Below, piece by piece: positions 2,400 through 8,093 of a DNA stretch of 22,461 bases. Below the pieces are notes generated by a model. The model had not been told where the DNA came from. It saw only the letters and a program-made list of their open reading frames with translations, and did not search any database. Each line of letters opens with the position of its first letter. Within the stretch, counting starts at the first letter, position 1. The position numbers were made by a program, and so were the translations under genes. Source of the DNA: a virus; IMG/VR virus record IMGVR_UViG_3300025137_000326, positions 1 through 22,461 of that record; one strand, 5' to 3'.

Positions 2400-2428
2400 T
2401 TGACATTACATGATACTTGTGGTACACT
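2400..2428 (+). promoter_or_regulatory. Strong sigma-70 promoter for the MoxR-VWA operon
   Basis: The -35 box is perfect, TTGACA (2400-2405). A 17-base spacer leads to TACACT (2423-2428), which has four of six consensus bases, including the key TA at the start and the final T. Transcription should begin near 2435, giving a short leader before the ATG at 2472. Three reverse TAATGTGAC copies (2315-2343) lie upstream, where an activator or repressor could act. Confidence 0.75.
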
Positions 2429-2471: not shown

Positions 2472-2648
2472 ATGATACAGAAAACCACCAAAGCCAAGTC
2501 CCGTCTTGGACGGGAGTTCAACGGAACAGACAAGGAGAACGTGAAGAAAGCAGAGTTCTTTAACTACTTGAACGAAGTTCTTGATAACAAGTTAGTCAAG
2601 CCAAGTATTATAATAGAATACGTCAACCAATACCAGAGAGGGGAATAA
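2472..2648 (+). CDS. Small unknown protein (58 aa) carrying a hairpin in its coding sequence
   Basis: The ORF begins MIQKTTKAKSRLGREF and ends in VNQYQRGE; it is hydrophilic and probably helical. The start is well supported: AGGAG at 2459-2463 lies 8 bases before the ATG, and the strong promoter at 2400-2428 lies just upstream. The stop codon is one base before the ATG of the next gene, so the two are coupled. Codons 10-15 (S-R-L-G-R-E) are made of the TCCCGTC hairpin repeat seen in non-coding positions elsewhere, so either the repeat inserted in frame or the mRNA start folds to control translation. I do not recognise the family; a leader-peptide role is possible. Confidence 0.65.
   Translation: MIQKTTKAKSRLGREFNGTDKENVKKAEFFNYLNEVLDNKLVKPSIIIEYVNQYQRGE
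2499..2515. repeat. TCCCGTC hairpin, copy 3 (loop TTG), inside a CDS
   Basis: TCCCGTC (2499-2505), loop TTG, GACGGGA (2509-2515), with the AAG and GTT flanks conserved. It lies 25 bases after the start codon of the 58-aa ORF, close enough for the mRNA hairpin to touch the initiation region. The loop TTG is the exact complement of the CAA loop of copy 4. Confidence 0.9.
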
Positions 2649-2649
2649 C

Positions 2650-3549
2650 ATGGAATACGCAATCGAAAACATATCAGCACCGAACCTAAGTTCTAGTGCT
2701 ATTCTAATTGACTTCAGTGTCTCGCAGTGGACTGGCAGAAAGCTAGACAGACGTGCAAGTGAGGAAGTCGAAGTATCTAACTCAGCATCTCTTGGCGTTG
2801 CCAACGTACACAAACGCATCATGGGCAAGTGTTCAGAGCTAGACGCTATCCACAAGTTTGTCGGTAACTTACGCAATGCACATTACTCAATGACTTTACC
2901 TTGGTCAGATCAAGGGTTGCGTATCGTAACAACAATGGGTCTAGAGAAGTACACCAAAGCCATGACCGAGAAACAACAGCAGTTTGAGAAGTTGGTCGAT
3001 AACTTCATGCGGGTGTACGCTACCCGTATTGGTGAAGCTGAGACTACTCTTGGTAACTTGTTTGAGAGAGACGATTACCCTAGCCTTGAGATGATGCAGA
3101 GTAAGTTTGGTTGGCGATTAAACTTTATACCCATTCAAGAGAGTGGTGACTTTCGTGTCGATATTGGCAACGAGCAAGCAGAAGTATTGAAAGAACAATA
3201 CACGAAGTACTATGACACACAGTACACAAACGCCATGAAAGACTTGTGGGATAGACTGTATAAACCTCTATCCAGAATGTCAGAACGGCTAGACTATCCA
3301 GAAGATGCAGACAGAGACACAAAGAAAGTGTTTACCAAGACGCTTGTGTCTAACGTCACAGAAGTACTTGACCTTCTTAAAGCATTCAATGTCAGTGATG
3401 ATCGTGACATGGAGATGGCTCATAAGAAGTTAAGACACGCACTCAATGGTATAACGCCAGAAGCATTGCGTGAAGATGATCACTTACGATTGGATACCAA
3501 GCGTTCTGTTGATGAAGTGATTAAAACATTACCGACTATCGGTATATAA
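2650..3549 (+). CDS. Uncharacterised protein partnered with MoxR-VWA (possibly DUF3150-like)
   Basis: A 299-aa soluble protein with a well-spaced AGGGG ribosome site before the ATG. It opens with a beta segment around LIDFSVSQWTGRK. Largely helical, charged sequence follows (about residues 95-145 and 170-275), containing a hallmark segment FERDDYPSLEMMQSKFGW and then SGDFRVDIG near residues 140-172. I recall proteins of this kind beside AAA+ and VWA genes in phages and integrated elements, perhaps DUF3150, but I cannot verify the family. There is no enzyme motif. It lies directly before the MoxR-type ATPase, separated by a TCCCGTC hairpin, so it is likely a structural or adaptor subunit of the same complex. 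The role is unknown. Confidence 0.8.
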   Translation: MEYAIENISAPNLSSSAILIDFSVSQWTGRKLDRRASEEVEVSNSASLGVANVHKRIMGKCSELDAIHKFVGNLRNAHYSMTLPWSDQGLRIVTTMGLEKYTKAMTEKQQQFEKLVDNFMRVYATRIGEAETTLGNLFERDDYPSLEMMQSKFGWRLNFIPIQESGDFRVDIGNEQAEVLKEQYTKYYDTQYTNAMKDLWDRLYKPLSRMSERLDYPEDADRDTKKVFTKTLVSNVTEVLDLLKAFNVSDDRDMEMAHKKLRHALNGITPEALREDDHLRLDTKRSVDEVIKTLPTIGI

Positions 3550-3561
3550 TTGAAACCCAAG

Positions 3562-3578
3562 TCCCGTCCAAGACGGGA
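3562..3578. repeat. TCCCGTC hairpin, copy 4 (loop CAA)
   Basis: TCCCGTC (3562-3568), loop CAA, GACGGGA (3572-3578), in the 50-base gap between the 299-aa protein gene and the AAA+ ATPase gene, just before the AAGGA ribosome site. The stem is unchanged while the loop is the reverse complement of copy 3. The left flank AAG is conserved, and the right flank GTA differs from GTT in one base. Confidence 0.9.
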
Positions 3579-3599
3579 GTATGACATAAAGGAAACGAA

Positions 3600-4694
3600 A
3601 TGACTAATTCAGCTAAAACAATGTATGCAGTTACTCTTGATCAAAGTGTTGATCTTATCAGTGCAATCGGTGACAAACAAACTGTGTTACTTCAAGGTGA
3701 CATGGGCAACGGCAAGTCAGCAGTTGGTTACATGCTTGAAAAGAAAATGCCAACGCACAAGTATTACTACTTTGACTGCACAACTAAAGACCTTGGTGAT
3801 ATCATGTATCCTAAGTTCAAAGATGCAGATGGTGGCGAGTGTGTTACAATGGTAACTAATGAAGAACTAGGGTTTCACTCAGATAAACCTGTTATCATAA
3901 ACCTAGACGAGTTCGGTAAAGCACTACCACCAGTAAAGACGGCTTTGCTACGTGGTATCTATGAACGCAAGATGGGTAAGTACACACTGCCAAAGGGTAG
4001 CATTATATTTGCTACAACTAACAAGGGTAGCGAGGGAGTTGGTGACATACTACCACCACATGCACGTAATCGTATGACAGTGGTGCAAGTAAAGAAAACA
4101 GACCACATGACGTGGATAGAGTGGGGTATCAGCAATGACATTGACCACGCAGTTCTTGGTTGGGTCAAAGACAATCCACAGACATTCCACAGTTTTGAGG
4201 ATATCAAAGACCCAGAAGAGAACCCATACATCTTTCACCCACAAGCCCAGAGAGATGCGTTTGTTACGCCACGATCACTGGAGTTAGCGTCTAACATTGT
4301 AAAGATGCGTGATGTTATGGACACTACCACGTTAACAGGAGCATTGATGGGTACTATAGGTGATCGTGGTGCTATGGACTTGGTATCACACATCAAACTA
4401 TCAGATCAACTACCAAGCTTGGAAAGTATCAAGACTGATCCAAAGAATGCTAAAGTGCCAGACAGTGCAAGTGCAATATGTATGGTGGTCTATCGTACCT
4501 TGGGATCTATTGAGCGTGATTGGTTGGACAAGTGGATGGACTATATGGTCAGACTAGATACAGAGGCACAAGGTCTATTTGCTAATGGTATCAAGTCACC
4601 TAAGTATTCCAAGCGTTCAATGGTGATGACGAACAAGAAGTTCACCGATTGGGCTAGAGTAAACAACTATATGTTTTCAGCAGATAAGAAGTAA
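3600..4694 (+). CDS. MoxR-type AAA+ ATPase
   Basis: A 364-aa ATPase. Walker A is GDMGNGKS (residues 33-40), Walker B is VIINLDE (98-104), sensor 1 is FATTN (137-141), and a candidate arginine finger lies in HARNRM (154-159). The order and spacing fit the MoxR/CbbQ/NorQ/CobS class, which forms hexameric rings that remodel or activate partner proteins, usually together with a VWA protein encoded next door. That partner is indeed the following gene, 10 bases downstream. The C-terminal 160 residues are mainly helical and specific to this protein. The start is supported by AAGGA six bases before the ATG. The substrate cannot be told from sequence. In phages the best-known relatives are CobS-like genes, but I do not infer cobalt chelation here. 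Confidence 0.88.
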   Translation: MTNSAKTMYAVTLDQSVDLISAIGDKQTVLLQGDMGNGKSAVGYMLEKKMPTHKYYYFDCTTKDLGDIMYPKFKDADGGECVTMVTNEELGFHSDKPVIINLDEFGKALPPVKTALLRGIYERKMGKYTLPKGSIIFATTNKGSEGVGDILPPHARNRMTVVQVKKTDHMTWIEWGISNDIDHAVLGWVKDNPQTFHSFEDIKDPEENPYIFHPQAQRDAFVTPRSLELASNIVKMRDVMDTTTLTGALMGTIGDRGAMDLVSHIKLSDQLPSLESIKTDPKNAKVPDSASAICMVVYRTLGSIERDWLDKWMDYMVRLDTEAQGLFANGIKSPKYSKRSMVMTNKKFTDWARVNNYMFSADKK

Positions 4695-4704
4695 GGGGGA
4701 GTAA

Positions 4705-5880
4705 ATGCTTAGTATTGGACAAAAACTAACTGTCGAACAACGTGTATCTAAATGTGTTGTTGGCATCATGGAGAACCCAAAGTACGTTGCACTCGCAGGA
4801 GTTTTGATGATCGGTGATCGTTCTGTTGATGATGACGTACCAACGGCTTGTACTGATGGCAAGAACGAGCAGTATGGGCGAGCGTTCTGTGAAAAACTAA
4901 ATGATGCAGAACTAAGGTTTCTTATACTACATGAGAACTATCACAAGTTATACAGGCACTTGATAACGTGGCAACACTTGCAAAAAGACAATCCAGAGTT
5001 GGCGAACATGGCTATGGACTATGTTATCAATCTCAAACTTGTTGCAGATAACGACGATAACTTTGCTACTATGACAGGTGAGTTAGCCAAGGGTTGTTTT
5101 GACGTGAAGTACAAGGGTTGGGATACCGCCAAGGTATTTCACGACCTCAAGGAGAACCCACCACCAGAGGGTGATAGCCTAGATAAACATGATTGGGATA
5201 GTGCCAAAGACATGACAGCCGAAGAAGCTAACGAGCTTGCTAAAGAGATCGACGAGGCAATACGCCAAGGTGCTATGATCGCAGGTAAGATGGGCAGTGG
5301 TGGTGATCGTGAGCTTAACGAGTTACTGCAACCACAAGTAGATTGGAAGCAGGTATTACGTGAGTTTATCACTGAGACTTGTGCAGGGCGAGACTACTCT
5401 AGTTGGCGTAAACCTAACAGGCGATACATAAGTATGGGTATCTATATGCCTAGTGGTGTATCAGAGAAAGTCGAGGAGTTAGTGCTTGCCATTGACACGT
5501 CGGGCAGTATCGGTAACCGCGAACTATCGGTGTTCTTATCCGAAGTCAAAGCTATCGCAGAAACAGTCAAGCCTAGTGCAGTACGCATACTCTATTGGGA
5601 TACAGAAGTATGTCGAGCAGAGAAGTATGAGATGCACGAACTAGACAATATAATTAATTCAACCAAACCAGAAGGCGGTGGTGGCACAACGGTTGAATGT
5701 GTTCCTCAATATATGACGGACAATAACGTGTCACCACAAGCATGTATTGTGCTAACTGATGGATACCTTGGTGGTAGTTGGGGTCAATGGACTTGTCCTA
5801 CCATGTGGTGTGTCCTTGACAACAAGAGTGCTAAACCAGACGTGGGTAAAGTTGTTCACGTCAATTCAAACTTAATGTAG
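4705..5880 (+). CDS. Metallopeptidase-like and VWA domain protein (MoxR partner)
   Basis: A 391-aa protein in two parts. The N-terminal part carries a zinc-peptidase-type motif HENYH (residues 76-80, HExxH) followed by a MDYVIN segment (about 104-109) that could supply the third ligand; this is the pattern of the DUF2201-type putative metallopeptidase domain. A charged linker (about 150-200) leads to a VWA domain with a complete MIDAS: DTSGS (264-268), Thr 328/329 in GGGGTT, and Asp 352 in LTDG. VWA proteins of this kind bind a MoxR AAA+ ring and present the substrate. AGGGGGAG precedes the ATG. The stop codon TAG forms part of a hairpin (5878-5891). Whether the peptidase motif is active is unknown; in related proteins it may only bind metal. 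Confidence 0.87.
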   Translation: MLSIGQKLTVEQRVSKCVVGIMENPKYVALAGVLMIGDRSVDDDVPTACTDGKNEQYGRAFCEKLNDAELRFLILHENYHKLYRHLITWQHLQKDNPELANMAMDYVINLKLVADNDDNFATMTGELAKGCFDVKYKGWDTAKVFHDLKENPPPEGDSLDKHDWDSAKDMTAEEANELAKEIDEAIRQGAMIAGKMGSGGDRELNELLQPQVDWKQVLREFITETCAGRDYSSWRKPNRRYISMGIYMPSGVSEKVEELVLAIDTSGSIGNRELSVFLSEVKAIAETVKPSAVRILYWDTEVCRAEKYEMHELDNIINSTKPEGGGGTTVECVPQYMTDNNVSPQACIVLTDGYLGGSWGQWTCPTMWCVLDNKSAKPDVGKVVHVNSNLM

Positions 5881-5891
5881 GGAAATCCCTA
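5878..5891. repeat. TTAGGG-type hairpin, copy 2, containing a stop codon
   Basis: TAGGGA (5878-5883) and TCCCTA (5886-5891) form a short, tight inverted repeat; at least five pairs can form with a 4-base loop. Its first three bases are the TAG stop of the VWA gene. The AAGGA ribosome site of the next gene follows within 10 bases, so the hairpin separates the two cistrons. Confidence 0.65.
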
Positions 5892-5912
5892 ACAAACTAA
5901 AGGAAACTAAAA

Positions 5913-6977
5913 ATGGCATATAGATATCAAAGCCCAACACTTAATACCTTTGCTGAAGTTGATTGGTTATACCACACAGTAAAGCCCATAATCAGTAAGA
6001 ACCACAGAAAAGAAGATGACCTTAGACCGATAGGCAGTCGTGGTAGAAAGCATGAACGTATTATCAAGGTCAACGACCAGAAGTACATTCTCAATGATGG
6101 GGAGTGCGATACAATATCATTTTGGAAGTTTTATTACTCCCAACCAAATAATAAATTACCGACCACGCAACAAATTGAAGCACTTGCACCGATAGTGTGG
6201 TCTATTGATGACGAGGGTAACGAGTTTATCAAGATACGTAATGGGTCTGGTACACAGTCACATCAAACACGATACACATTCCTTGAAAATACTTTACCTC
6301 AGTGTATGAGTTTTATTATTACTAGTGGCAAGCAGTATATACAAGTGAGATCGGGTGTTGAACCAAATTCAAAACTCTCTGAATACTTCCTACCAAAGAG
6401 TGAATACTACTGGAGTAATGAAACTTCCAAAGATGATTTTAGGCAGTTGCACTTAACCAAACCAGCCAACTCTAAGTTTTGGTTACCGCAGGGTAATACG
6501 TTTACGTTTAGTCCACCAAAGAAGAGGATTGACAAGAAACGTAAGGCTGACCTCAAAGATGCTATCGAAGGTATGTGGGATTACATTAGTGCCATGTGGA
6601 CACTTATTGATGTTGTTGATGGGGGATATAGTTGGAACAAGCACCAAGAAAACAAAAAAGAGATGGATACACACTACCATGCTTGGCTTGGTCAACCTTC
6701 TGAAAATCTCACTCATTGGTGGGATTGGAAAGGTAAGGGTGACTTTATTGCTCACGTGTTTGGAACTGAAGAGCATCCATGTCGTGTTACCATACTTGAT
6801 ATGTTTGTATATGACAGTGACTTGGTAAATATTAAACTTGGAAGGCTTACTAATTTTGACGAGAGAGAACAACTATCTAGATTGCGTAGTCAATACAACC
6901 GTTGGGTAAACAAGGCTTTGGAGTTGGACTACATACACTCTGAAAAATCAATAGTAGAAGTAAAAGGAGAAAGATAA
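5913..6977 (+). CDS. Unknown protein (354 aa), MoxR-VWA operon
   Basis: A soluble protein rich in Trp, Tyr, Lys and Asp that I do not recognise. The first half (to about residue 200) alternates short beta-like segments, for example ERIIKVNDQKYILNDGE and EFIKIRNGSG. A basic helical stretch (about 205-230, KKRIDKKRKADLKDA) follows. The last third has a Trp cluster (HWWDWKGKGDFIAHVFG, about 270-286) and a charged C-terminal helix. There is no nucleotide-binding or metal motif and no membrane segment. AAAGGAAA supports the ATG. It follows the VWA gene through a short hairpin and overlaps the next gene by one base (TAATG). Location suggests a partner or target of the MoxR-VWA machine, or simply a co-transcribed early gene. 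Confidence 0.8.
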   Translation: MAYRYQSPTLNTFAEVDWLYHTVKPIISKNHRKEDDLRPIGSRGRKHERIIKVNDQKYILNDGECDTISFWKFYYSQPNNKLPTTQQIEALAPIVWSIDDEGNEFIKIRNGSGTQSHQTRYTFLENTLPQCMSFIITSGKQYIQVRSGVEPNSKLSEYFLPKSEYYWSNETSKDDFRQLHLTKPANSKFWLPQGNTFTFSPPKKRIDKKRKADLKDAIEGMWDYISAMWTLIDVVDGGYSWNKHQENKKEMDTHYHAWLGQPSENLTHWWDWKGKGDFIAHVFGTEEHPCRVTILDMFVYDSDLVNIKLGRLTNFDEREQLSRLRSQYNRWVNKALELDYIHSEKSIVEVKGER

Positions 6978-7855
6978 TGAGTAAAGTACACACAAGAGTT
7001 AGTAAAATAGCTGATAAAACATGGTTAAAGTACTGCACCGAACAAGATATACTATCGGGGGTAATTACAGAGGTACAGAATTATGCTAAAGAGTTGCTAT
7101 CGTATTCGCCTGGGCTGAAGTTTGCACCTAAGAAAGATAACGAGTTATGGGTGTACCTTGAAGATAACCCCTACGTCTTGGGGTTTATCGGTTACGATTG
7201 CTACCAACAACACGTTAGCGGTGTAAACAAATATATGGTTGCATCACGCAATATTGTTAACGAGAAATACGCTAGTTACAACAAACAACGCAATATGCAT
7301 ACAAGCTCCAATCTTAAAACTATACTTGGTAAAGCAAGGAAAGCTATGCGTCCTATACCTCATGCTGAGATAGCAAAGATGGAAAGGCGAGACATACAAG
7401 CTAAATTTAAAGGTGATGTTGCAAGAAAAGAATACGCAGTAGATGAAGTCCTAACCAGTGTAAAAAAGAGTACGGCTCTACTACAAGAACTACGTCATAT
7501 GCTAAACAGTGAGTACGAGTTTAAAAGTTTATGGCTTAAAGAACAAACGCAATTATATTTTGATAACTTGAAGCTACGAGATGAGGCTAAAGCGAAAACT
7601 CTACACACATATTTTGTTCGTGCATATGACAAGTATGGGGATGGAGAACTACACTTTAATATTGTTGGCGTTAACGATTTACAAACACATATGCCAACTG
7701 TTGAGCCAGAAGTATTTTACTGCACTGAACAAGATGTACCAGAAGATATCTTGGGTAAAGTTAGTGTTCTCAATATAACTGAAGTTGATGAGTACGTGGA
7801 AGATGTTGGCTATAACACAGGGGATGGTATGTTCTATGTCGTTAAGCAATCCTAA
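6977..7855 (+). CDS. Unknown protein (292 aa), MoxR-VWA operon
   Basis: The start overlaps the stop of the previous gene by one base (TAATG), with AAAGGAGAA upstream, so translation is coupled. The protein is soluble, Lys/Tyr rich and not recognised. There is a compact N-terminal part (about 1-85, including ELWVYLEDNPYVLGFIGYDCY). A long basic helical region follows (about 90-215), with KARKAMRPIPHAEIAKMERR and a likely short coiled coil. The C-terminal part is acidic and beta-rich (about 225-292). No catalytic motif is visible. It belongs to the same transcription unit as the MoxR and VWA genes, and its function is unknown. Confidence 0.8.
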   Translation: MSKVHTRVSKIADKTWLKYCTEQDILSGVITEVQNYAKELLSYSPGLKFAPKKDNELWVYLEDNPYVLGFIGYDCYQQHVSGVNKYMVASRNIVNEKYASYNKQRNMHTSSNLKTILGKARKAMRPIPHAEIAKMERRDIQAKFKGDVARKEYAVDEVLTSVKKSTALLQELRHMLNSEYEFKSLWLKEQTQLYFDNLKLRDEAKAKTLHTYFVRAYDKYGDGELHFNIVGVNDLQTHMPTVEPEVFYCTEQDVPEDILGKVSVLNITEVDEYVEDVGYNTGDGMFYVVKQS

Positions 7856-8093
7856 ACTAAACACTGACACGTTATACCGCGTTTCAATATCAAATGATAA
7901 CAATAACGCTATTGTGGTATGTGTAGGCATGGAATGTGTTGACAGTGGTGATGTAGGGTGCTACGATTCTGTGGATGCTTTGCCAGATTGGATGCAAGGC
8001 AAGATAGCTTTATTGATGATATATAAAGAAATATCTGGCGTGGGTTGGAGATCAGATGAGGATACATTCTGGTTATCAAAGGAAAAGGGTTAG
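7836..8093 (+). CDS. Small unknown phage protein (85 aa)
   Basis: The chosen start (MSLSNPKLNTDTLYR) overlaps the end of the previous gene by 20 bases. The frame is open further upstream to 7785, but those codons lie inside the 292-aa gene and look like a shadow; an ATG at 7824 is also possible. The protein is acidic, with beta-like segments and a motif DALPDWMQGKIALLMIY near residues 46-62, a pattern I recall in small uncharacterised phage proteins. The TAG stop codon is embedded in the left arm of the hairpin at 8087-8108. Confidence 0.6.
   Translation: MSLSNPKLNTDTLYRVSISNDNNNAIVVCVGMECVDSGDVGCYDSVDALPDWMQGKIALLMIYKEISGVGWRSDEDTFWLSKEKG

Follow-up and report, generated by a model that had tools for sequence, protein, structure and literature searches.

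Why would a bacterial virus carry a MoxR ATPase and a VWA partner just ahead of its replication genes, and what are the genes that accompany them? The question is raised by IMGVR_UViG_3300025137_000326, a 22,461-base IMG/VR virus record analysed whole (the window; all cassette positions are window positions), in which a cassette encodes, on one strand, a DUF3150-like protein (D), the ATPase (M), a metallopeptidase–VWA protein (V) and three further proteins, A, B and the small b (Table 1). Our answer, which we consider rather probable, is that these genes specify a conserved three-subunit remodelling machine together with phage-specific, fast-evolving adaptors or clients. What is new here is the organisation, that is, the addition of a putative DUF3150 subunit and of phage-specific partners to a MoxR–VWA pair.

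A MoxR–VWA pair and its DUF3150-like companion

Searches of Pfam and PHROGs returned a MoxR-type M and a metallopeptidase–VWA V, and the first-pass annotation of this DNA, which had read the locus as a MoxR–VWA system with intact Walker motifs in one protein and an HExxH motif plus a full metal ion-dependent adhesion site (MIDAS) in the other, is upheld. M matches phrog_1297 ('ATPase', E 2.9e-45), a family profile of M and its relatives finds the AAA modules of Midasin and NorQ in the PDB, and the residues expected of an AAA+ protein, that is, Walker A (33-40), Walker B (D103/E104), sensor (N141) and arginine finger (R225), show little or no variation among 127 homologues. A search of the window with PF07726 (AAA_3), which is the wrong branch of the family, gave no match, and CbbQ_C (PF08406), the mark of the NorQ/CbbQ subfamily, is absent from M (Pfam, E<=1). 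V matches PF13203 (metallopeptidase, E 1e-23) and PF09967 (VWA, E 9e-17), and H76, E77 and H80 are invariant in 147 homologues, as is the complete MIDAS (D264, S266, S268, T328 and D352) that is expected of a VWA partner encoded next to the ATPase. The catalytic residues, whose loss in relatives was looked for, are thus kept in both families. The V family (4705-5880 in the window; 6165-7307 in locus L003) is labelled 'HNH endonuclease' in PHROGs (phrog_1314) and in RefSeq, which looks like a propagated annotation error since Pfam detects no HNH domain in the window V.

The pair itself is already known and common in phages, as is clear from the 756 phage records, out of 50,697, that contain a relative of V, from the homology of V to N4 gp25 (the two genes being of the gp24/gp25 type, phrog_1297 plus phrog_1314, which are core genes of N4-like phages; PMC4193335; see also PMC7650795) and from the MoxR/metallopeptidase-vWA pair described in jumbo phages (PMC7824862). 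In N4, as in the window, a MoxR-type ATPase is followed by a metallopeptidase–VWA protein (about 24% identity to M and 26% to V), and these are middle genes, core to the Schitoviridae, that lie ahead of the replication genes, but DUF3150, A, B and b partners were not detected there. The jumbo-phage group 2.2 shares, according to its authors, the two-domain VWA architecture and the ATPase partner, but third-subunit or adaptor genes are not described (PMC7824862). NorQ–NorD and CbbQ–CbbO likewise combine an AAA+ ring with a MIDAS-bearing VWA partner, and the M profile picks up NorQ in the PDB; they differ in that M lacks CbbQ_C, V has a metallopeptidase domain, the cassette adds DUF3150 and their targets are known enzymes. 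The p618/p892 pair of ATV is also a viral MoxR–VWA pair, but ATV is an archaeal virus, the peptidase domain is reported to be lacking (PMC7824862) and no DUF3150 partner is reported in the literature examined. A near-phage-type MoxR–VWA pair, followed by a B-like C-terminal fragment, was also seen in a 619-kb contig of Spiribacter salilacus (L185), where this region of a large bacterial contig is possibly an integrated element.

The 299-aa protein had been left uncharacterised and counted among the candidate targets or adaptors; by profile comparison, D is most probably a divergent DUF3150 protein. The window D itself matches PF11348 at E 0.0038, below the gathering score, and 44 of its 54 relatives match at E<=0.1 (best E 1.2e-7); the D profile also strongly matches plasmid proteins that occupy the DUF3150 position beside MoxR and VWA genes. 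MoxR, DUF3150-type and VWA genes occur together on all five plasmids examined (Burkholderia, Cupriavidus, Caballeronia, Rhodovastum and Simplicispira), and in pCAR1, ORF101-103 encode AAA, DUF3150 and VWA proteins, the gene between MoxR and VWA being annotated DUF3150. The MoxR and VWA genes of pCAR1 were noted in 2009 in a co-transcribed operon whose role in conjugation was suspected by the authors (PMC2642839). The three components are shared by plasmids and cassette, adjacent in most plasmids, and in Rhodovastum the VWA protein belongs, like V, to the DUF2201 type; the plasmid order is, however, M-D-V rather than D-M-V, and the plasmids lack A, B and b. Canonical DUF3150 genes are uncommon in two samples of bacterial genomes, drawn from the class and from the order to which a Xenophilus belongs (9/369 and 11/300, respectively). 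Of 17 such chromosomal regions inspected, 15 have an open reading frame (ORF) with the MIDAS motif DxSGS within a few kb, mostly directly adjacent, and at least 12 have a Walker-A ORF nearby. Two of these chromosomal examples receive from Pfam the names CobT-type VWA and AAA_5, and one DUF3150-linked ATPase has CbbQ_C. Phage MinM2, too, carries DUF3150 next to MoxR–VWA. Since DUF3150 accompanies MoxR–VWA on plasmids, on chromosomes and in this phage, D is probably a constant third core subunit rather than a target. The records of MinM2, Pag-Yong1 and Pra-JY27 (L001, hits H61-H63) have different host names, an identical length of 65,014 and identical match scores, and look like one virus.

Order, structure and evolution of the partners

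Gene order was counted in a set of loci that covers 126 different V proteins. In 69 of them the genes D-M-V-A-B follow one another in this order on one strand; most of the rest are truncated where the contig stops, and in none does a cassette gene lie on the opposite strand. In searches anchored on A and on B, V was present in every locus with enough upstream sequence, the loci without V lying on contigs that begin at most about 1.1 kb upstream of A or B; the 354- and 292-aa families, which the first-pass annotation had proposed to look for away from MoxR–VWA pairs, are thus never apart from V where sequence suffices. A 66-kb relative (G003) has the rearranged order A'-M-V-D-B, in which A' is a distant homologue of A (hhalign probability 93.6). 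In the loci surveyed, A, B and b are restricted to this lineage and its kin. Their carriers, a widespread and uncultured group of bacterial viruses, come without exception from IMG/VR contigs or from phage-like contigs that had been binned with genomes, and probably belong to one broad lineage; neither A nor B has a match in the 50,697 phage records.

The structure model of A is confident, with a predicted local distance difference test (pLDDT) score of 92.8. A fold search against the PDB found nothing above background for it, which does not prove that the modelled fold is new, and a search of BFVD found one homologue from an uncultured phage (E 3e-20) and one doubtful match in a Caulobacter phage. 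The model of B (pLDDT 90.4) stays at background level in the PDB, except for a weak DUF1801 match of its N-terminus. The neighbouring gene b repeats the C-terminal stretch of B (~50 residues); this module was considered as a general recognition tag and rejected, because in the loci surveyed it was seen solely in B/b-type proteins. Kinship of A with B was likewise rejected upon comparison, and so was kinship of either with the flanking proteins of MinM2, RHph_TM3_14A, SBP1 and N4 (hhalign). The 354- and 292-aa proteins nevertheless keep the place that they had been given as candidate adaptors or targets, with the qualification that the 354-aa gene is missing in some relatives.

The two halves of the cassette evolve differently. 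In three pairwise comparisons, the ratio of non-synonymous to synonymous substitution rates (dN/dS) was 0.04-0.13 for D, 0.04-0.10 for M and 0.10-0.20 for V, as against 0.33-0.59 for A, 0.21-0.35 for B and 0.24-0.65 for b. Purifying selection is strong on D and M and much weaker on A and B, whose dN/dS is several times that of the DNA polymerase PolA. When 36 loci are compared pairwise, the identities of D, M and V covary (rho 0.73-0.77) and are nearly independent of those of PolA (rho 0.04-0.20); A and B track PolA (rho 0.42-0.48) more than they track D or M (0.20-0.31). Two loci, L011 and L012, illustrate this for the core genes: compared with the window, they have 78-79% identity in PolA but 34% in D, 46% in M and 56-57% in V. 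Exchange of D-M-V as one block is, on these identities, plausible.

Coordinates and genomic setting

Table 1. Features of the cassette, in window positions.
Feature	Position	Strand	Basis
Promoter-like site TTGACA-N17-TACACT, TG preceding second hexamer	2400..2428	+	Consensus scan
58-aa ORF	2472..2648	+	ORF list; last ~34 residues conserved, close relatives only
D, 299 aa, divergent DUF3150, proposed third core subunit	2650..3549	+	PF11348 in 44/54 relatives; plasmid profile match
M, 364 aa, MoxR/AAA_5-type AAA+ ATPase, phrog_1297	3600..4694	+	
V, 391 aa, DUF2201_N metallopeptidase (HExxH 76-80) + VWA with full MIDAS, phrog_1314	4705..5880	+	
A, 354 aa, lineage-specific, fast-evolving; confident model, no PDB fold match	5913..6977	+	
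B, 292 aa, lineage-specific, fast-evolving; N-terminal domain weakly DUF1801/YdhG-like (Z 6.6)	6977..7855	+	
b, 102 aa, small paralogue repeating the C-terminal module of B	7785..8093	+	

The six ORFs first reported between 2472 and 7855 (58, 299, 364, 391, 354 and 292 aa, all on the + strand) are exactly where they had been placed, and a seventh gene, b, belongs to the set; the smallest of the six is present but of limited conservation (Table 1). The 'one strong promoter' said to drive them amounts to a 10/12 consensus match upstream, and such matches are no more frequent in the region than chance predicts (18 observed versus 18.2 expected). Downstream, the same strand encodes a VRR nuclease, PolA, a RecB-like exonuclease, an SNF2 helicase, a Gp2.5-like single-stranded DNA-binding protein (SSB) and a primase-helicase; the opposite strand of the window encodes a large protein akin to giant phage proteins annotated DarB-like. 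The closest isolates, judged by DNA polymerase and primase-helicase, share less than 40% identity: Rhizobium phage RHph_TM3_14A, Pseudomonas KPP25 and Rollin. G001, a relative of 61 kb, has the cassette at the start of its replication arm, pointing away from the genes for terminase, portal and head. Rfam and tRNA searches gave no matches.

Three kinds of repeats were seen in and around the start of the cassette. Directly upstream of it, AT-rich non-coding DNA (1970-2343) holds eight exact copies of TAATGTGAC, on both strands (0.25 expected window-wide), which are perhaps origin iterons or operators. A palindrome, TCCCGTC-NN-GGACGGGA, occurs four times (1094-1110, 1949-1965, 2499-2515 and 3562-3578; 0.01 expected), with one copy within the 58-aa ORF and another in the gap that separates D from M; zero exact copies were found among the 307 other loci fetched. 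Finally, a 32-base unit is perfectly duplicated in tandem at 1876-1939.

What the proposed machine may act upon

The cassette would encode an ATP-driven protein-remodelling machine in which (i) M, judging from its family, forms an AAA+ ring, (ii) V docks on this ring and uses its MIDAS to hold a client, as NorQ–NorD would suggest, in which a finger of the VWA protein reaches into the AAA+ pore and the MIDAS is needed for the target (PMC13036017, PMC9976466), (iii) the N-terminal zinc-peptidase-like domain of V may additionally cut the client, (iv) M drives V, with D coupling or regulating the two, and (v) A, B and b serve as adaptors or dedicated clients peculiar to the phage lineage, either presenting the client or being it. 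The fast evolution of A, B and b suggests that the partner to which they link the motor is itself changing; the simplest candidate is a host protein, which would most likely be met early or mid infection (takeover or counter-defence). To a machine with adaptors acting on such a host target we would give somewhat less than an even chance. A bolder version seems unlikely to us: here a phage-borne MoxR–VWA–DUF3150 motor with swappable adaptors A, B and b would remodel or cut host defence or takeover targets, plasmids and phages would have this mobile counter-defence chaperone in common, and A would have a new fold.

Several observations weigh against a three-subunit machine with host-directed adaptors. 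Some loci (L109 and L111, for example) have B directly after V and no A, so A is not obligatory; N4-like phages retain M-V without detectable D, A or B; and the PADLOC models find no defence system in the cassette, just a chance-level Csm3 match to A (E 0.03). When five deeply divergent loci are left out, the covariation of D, M and V drops to rho 0.40-0.49, and the M tree has supported splits that disagree with those of D and V; exchange of the three genes as one block is therefore not proven, a clean exchange being only partly supported. Lastly, the fast evolution of A, B and b could mirror that of tail proteins instead of a host factor.

This last point leads to the best placed of the rivals, a chaperone of virion assembly, in which the MoxR–VWA pair would mature or assemble a tail or internal virion protein, with processing by the peptidase, and A and B would be virion parts or their chaperones. 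MoxR p618 and VWA p892 of ATV are thought to act in tail development (PMC4124505), and four virion proteins of roseophage RPP1 are encoded near its homologues of N4 gp24/gp25 (PMC4193335), which makes this a serious rival; Iyer et al. also propose virion assembly for the jumbo-phage pairs (PMC7824862). We nonetheless regard it as somewhat unlikely: the cassette belongs to the replication arm and, in G001, points away from the structural genes, relatives of A and B have no convincing match among PHROG structural families, and a general role of this kind sits badly with the occurrence of the triad on plasmids, which are entities without a virion.

Third comes a remodeller of replication or transcription, which would load, activate or dismantle the complexes of phage DNA or RNA metabolism. 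The cassette lies just upstream of the nuclease-to-primase-helicase series on the same strand, the pair is also upstream of the DNA polymerase in RHph_TM3_14A and SBP1, and the plasmid triads are near recombination or partition genes. D, M and V diverge independently of PolA, however, and a dN/dS as high as that of A and B would be unusual for replication partners, which is why we hold this explanation to be unlikely. It is very improbable that the genes merely hitch-hike, travelling together within one phage lineage while A and B share no function with the rest: the probable confinement of A and B to that lineage, and the fact that they follow PolA over D or M, would fit, but the set is kept in G003 despite the rearranged order, and the order is otherwise strict though protein identities fall to about 20-30% and though D-M-V are far more diverged than the flanking genes in L011 and L012. 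An auxiliary metabolic CobST-type cobaltochelatase using the CobN of the host, for which there is precedent in the cobST pairs widespread in tailed viruses (cobT being often mis-annotated; PMC8651126), is rejected on domain content as extremely improbable, since V matches DUF2201 and not CobT (Pfam, NCBIfam), M has no CbbQ_C match and no cobalamin genes were seen in the window.

A three-subunit machine with lineage-specific partners would bear on more than one group of mobile elements. DUF3150, as a recurrent third component, and the fast-evolving A and B turn the core pair of N4-like phages into a source of testable questions, namely whether the subunits associate and what A and B bind, and they link phages and conjugative plasmids through what would be one shared machine.

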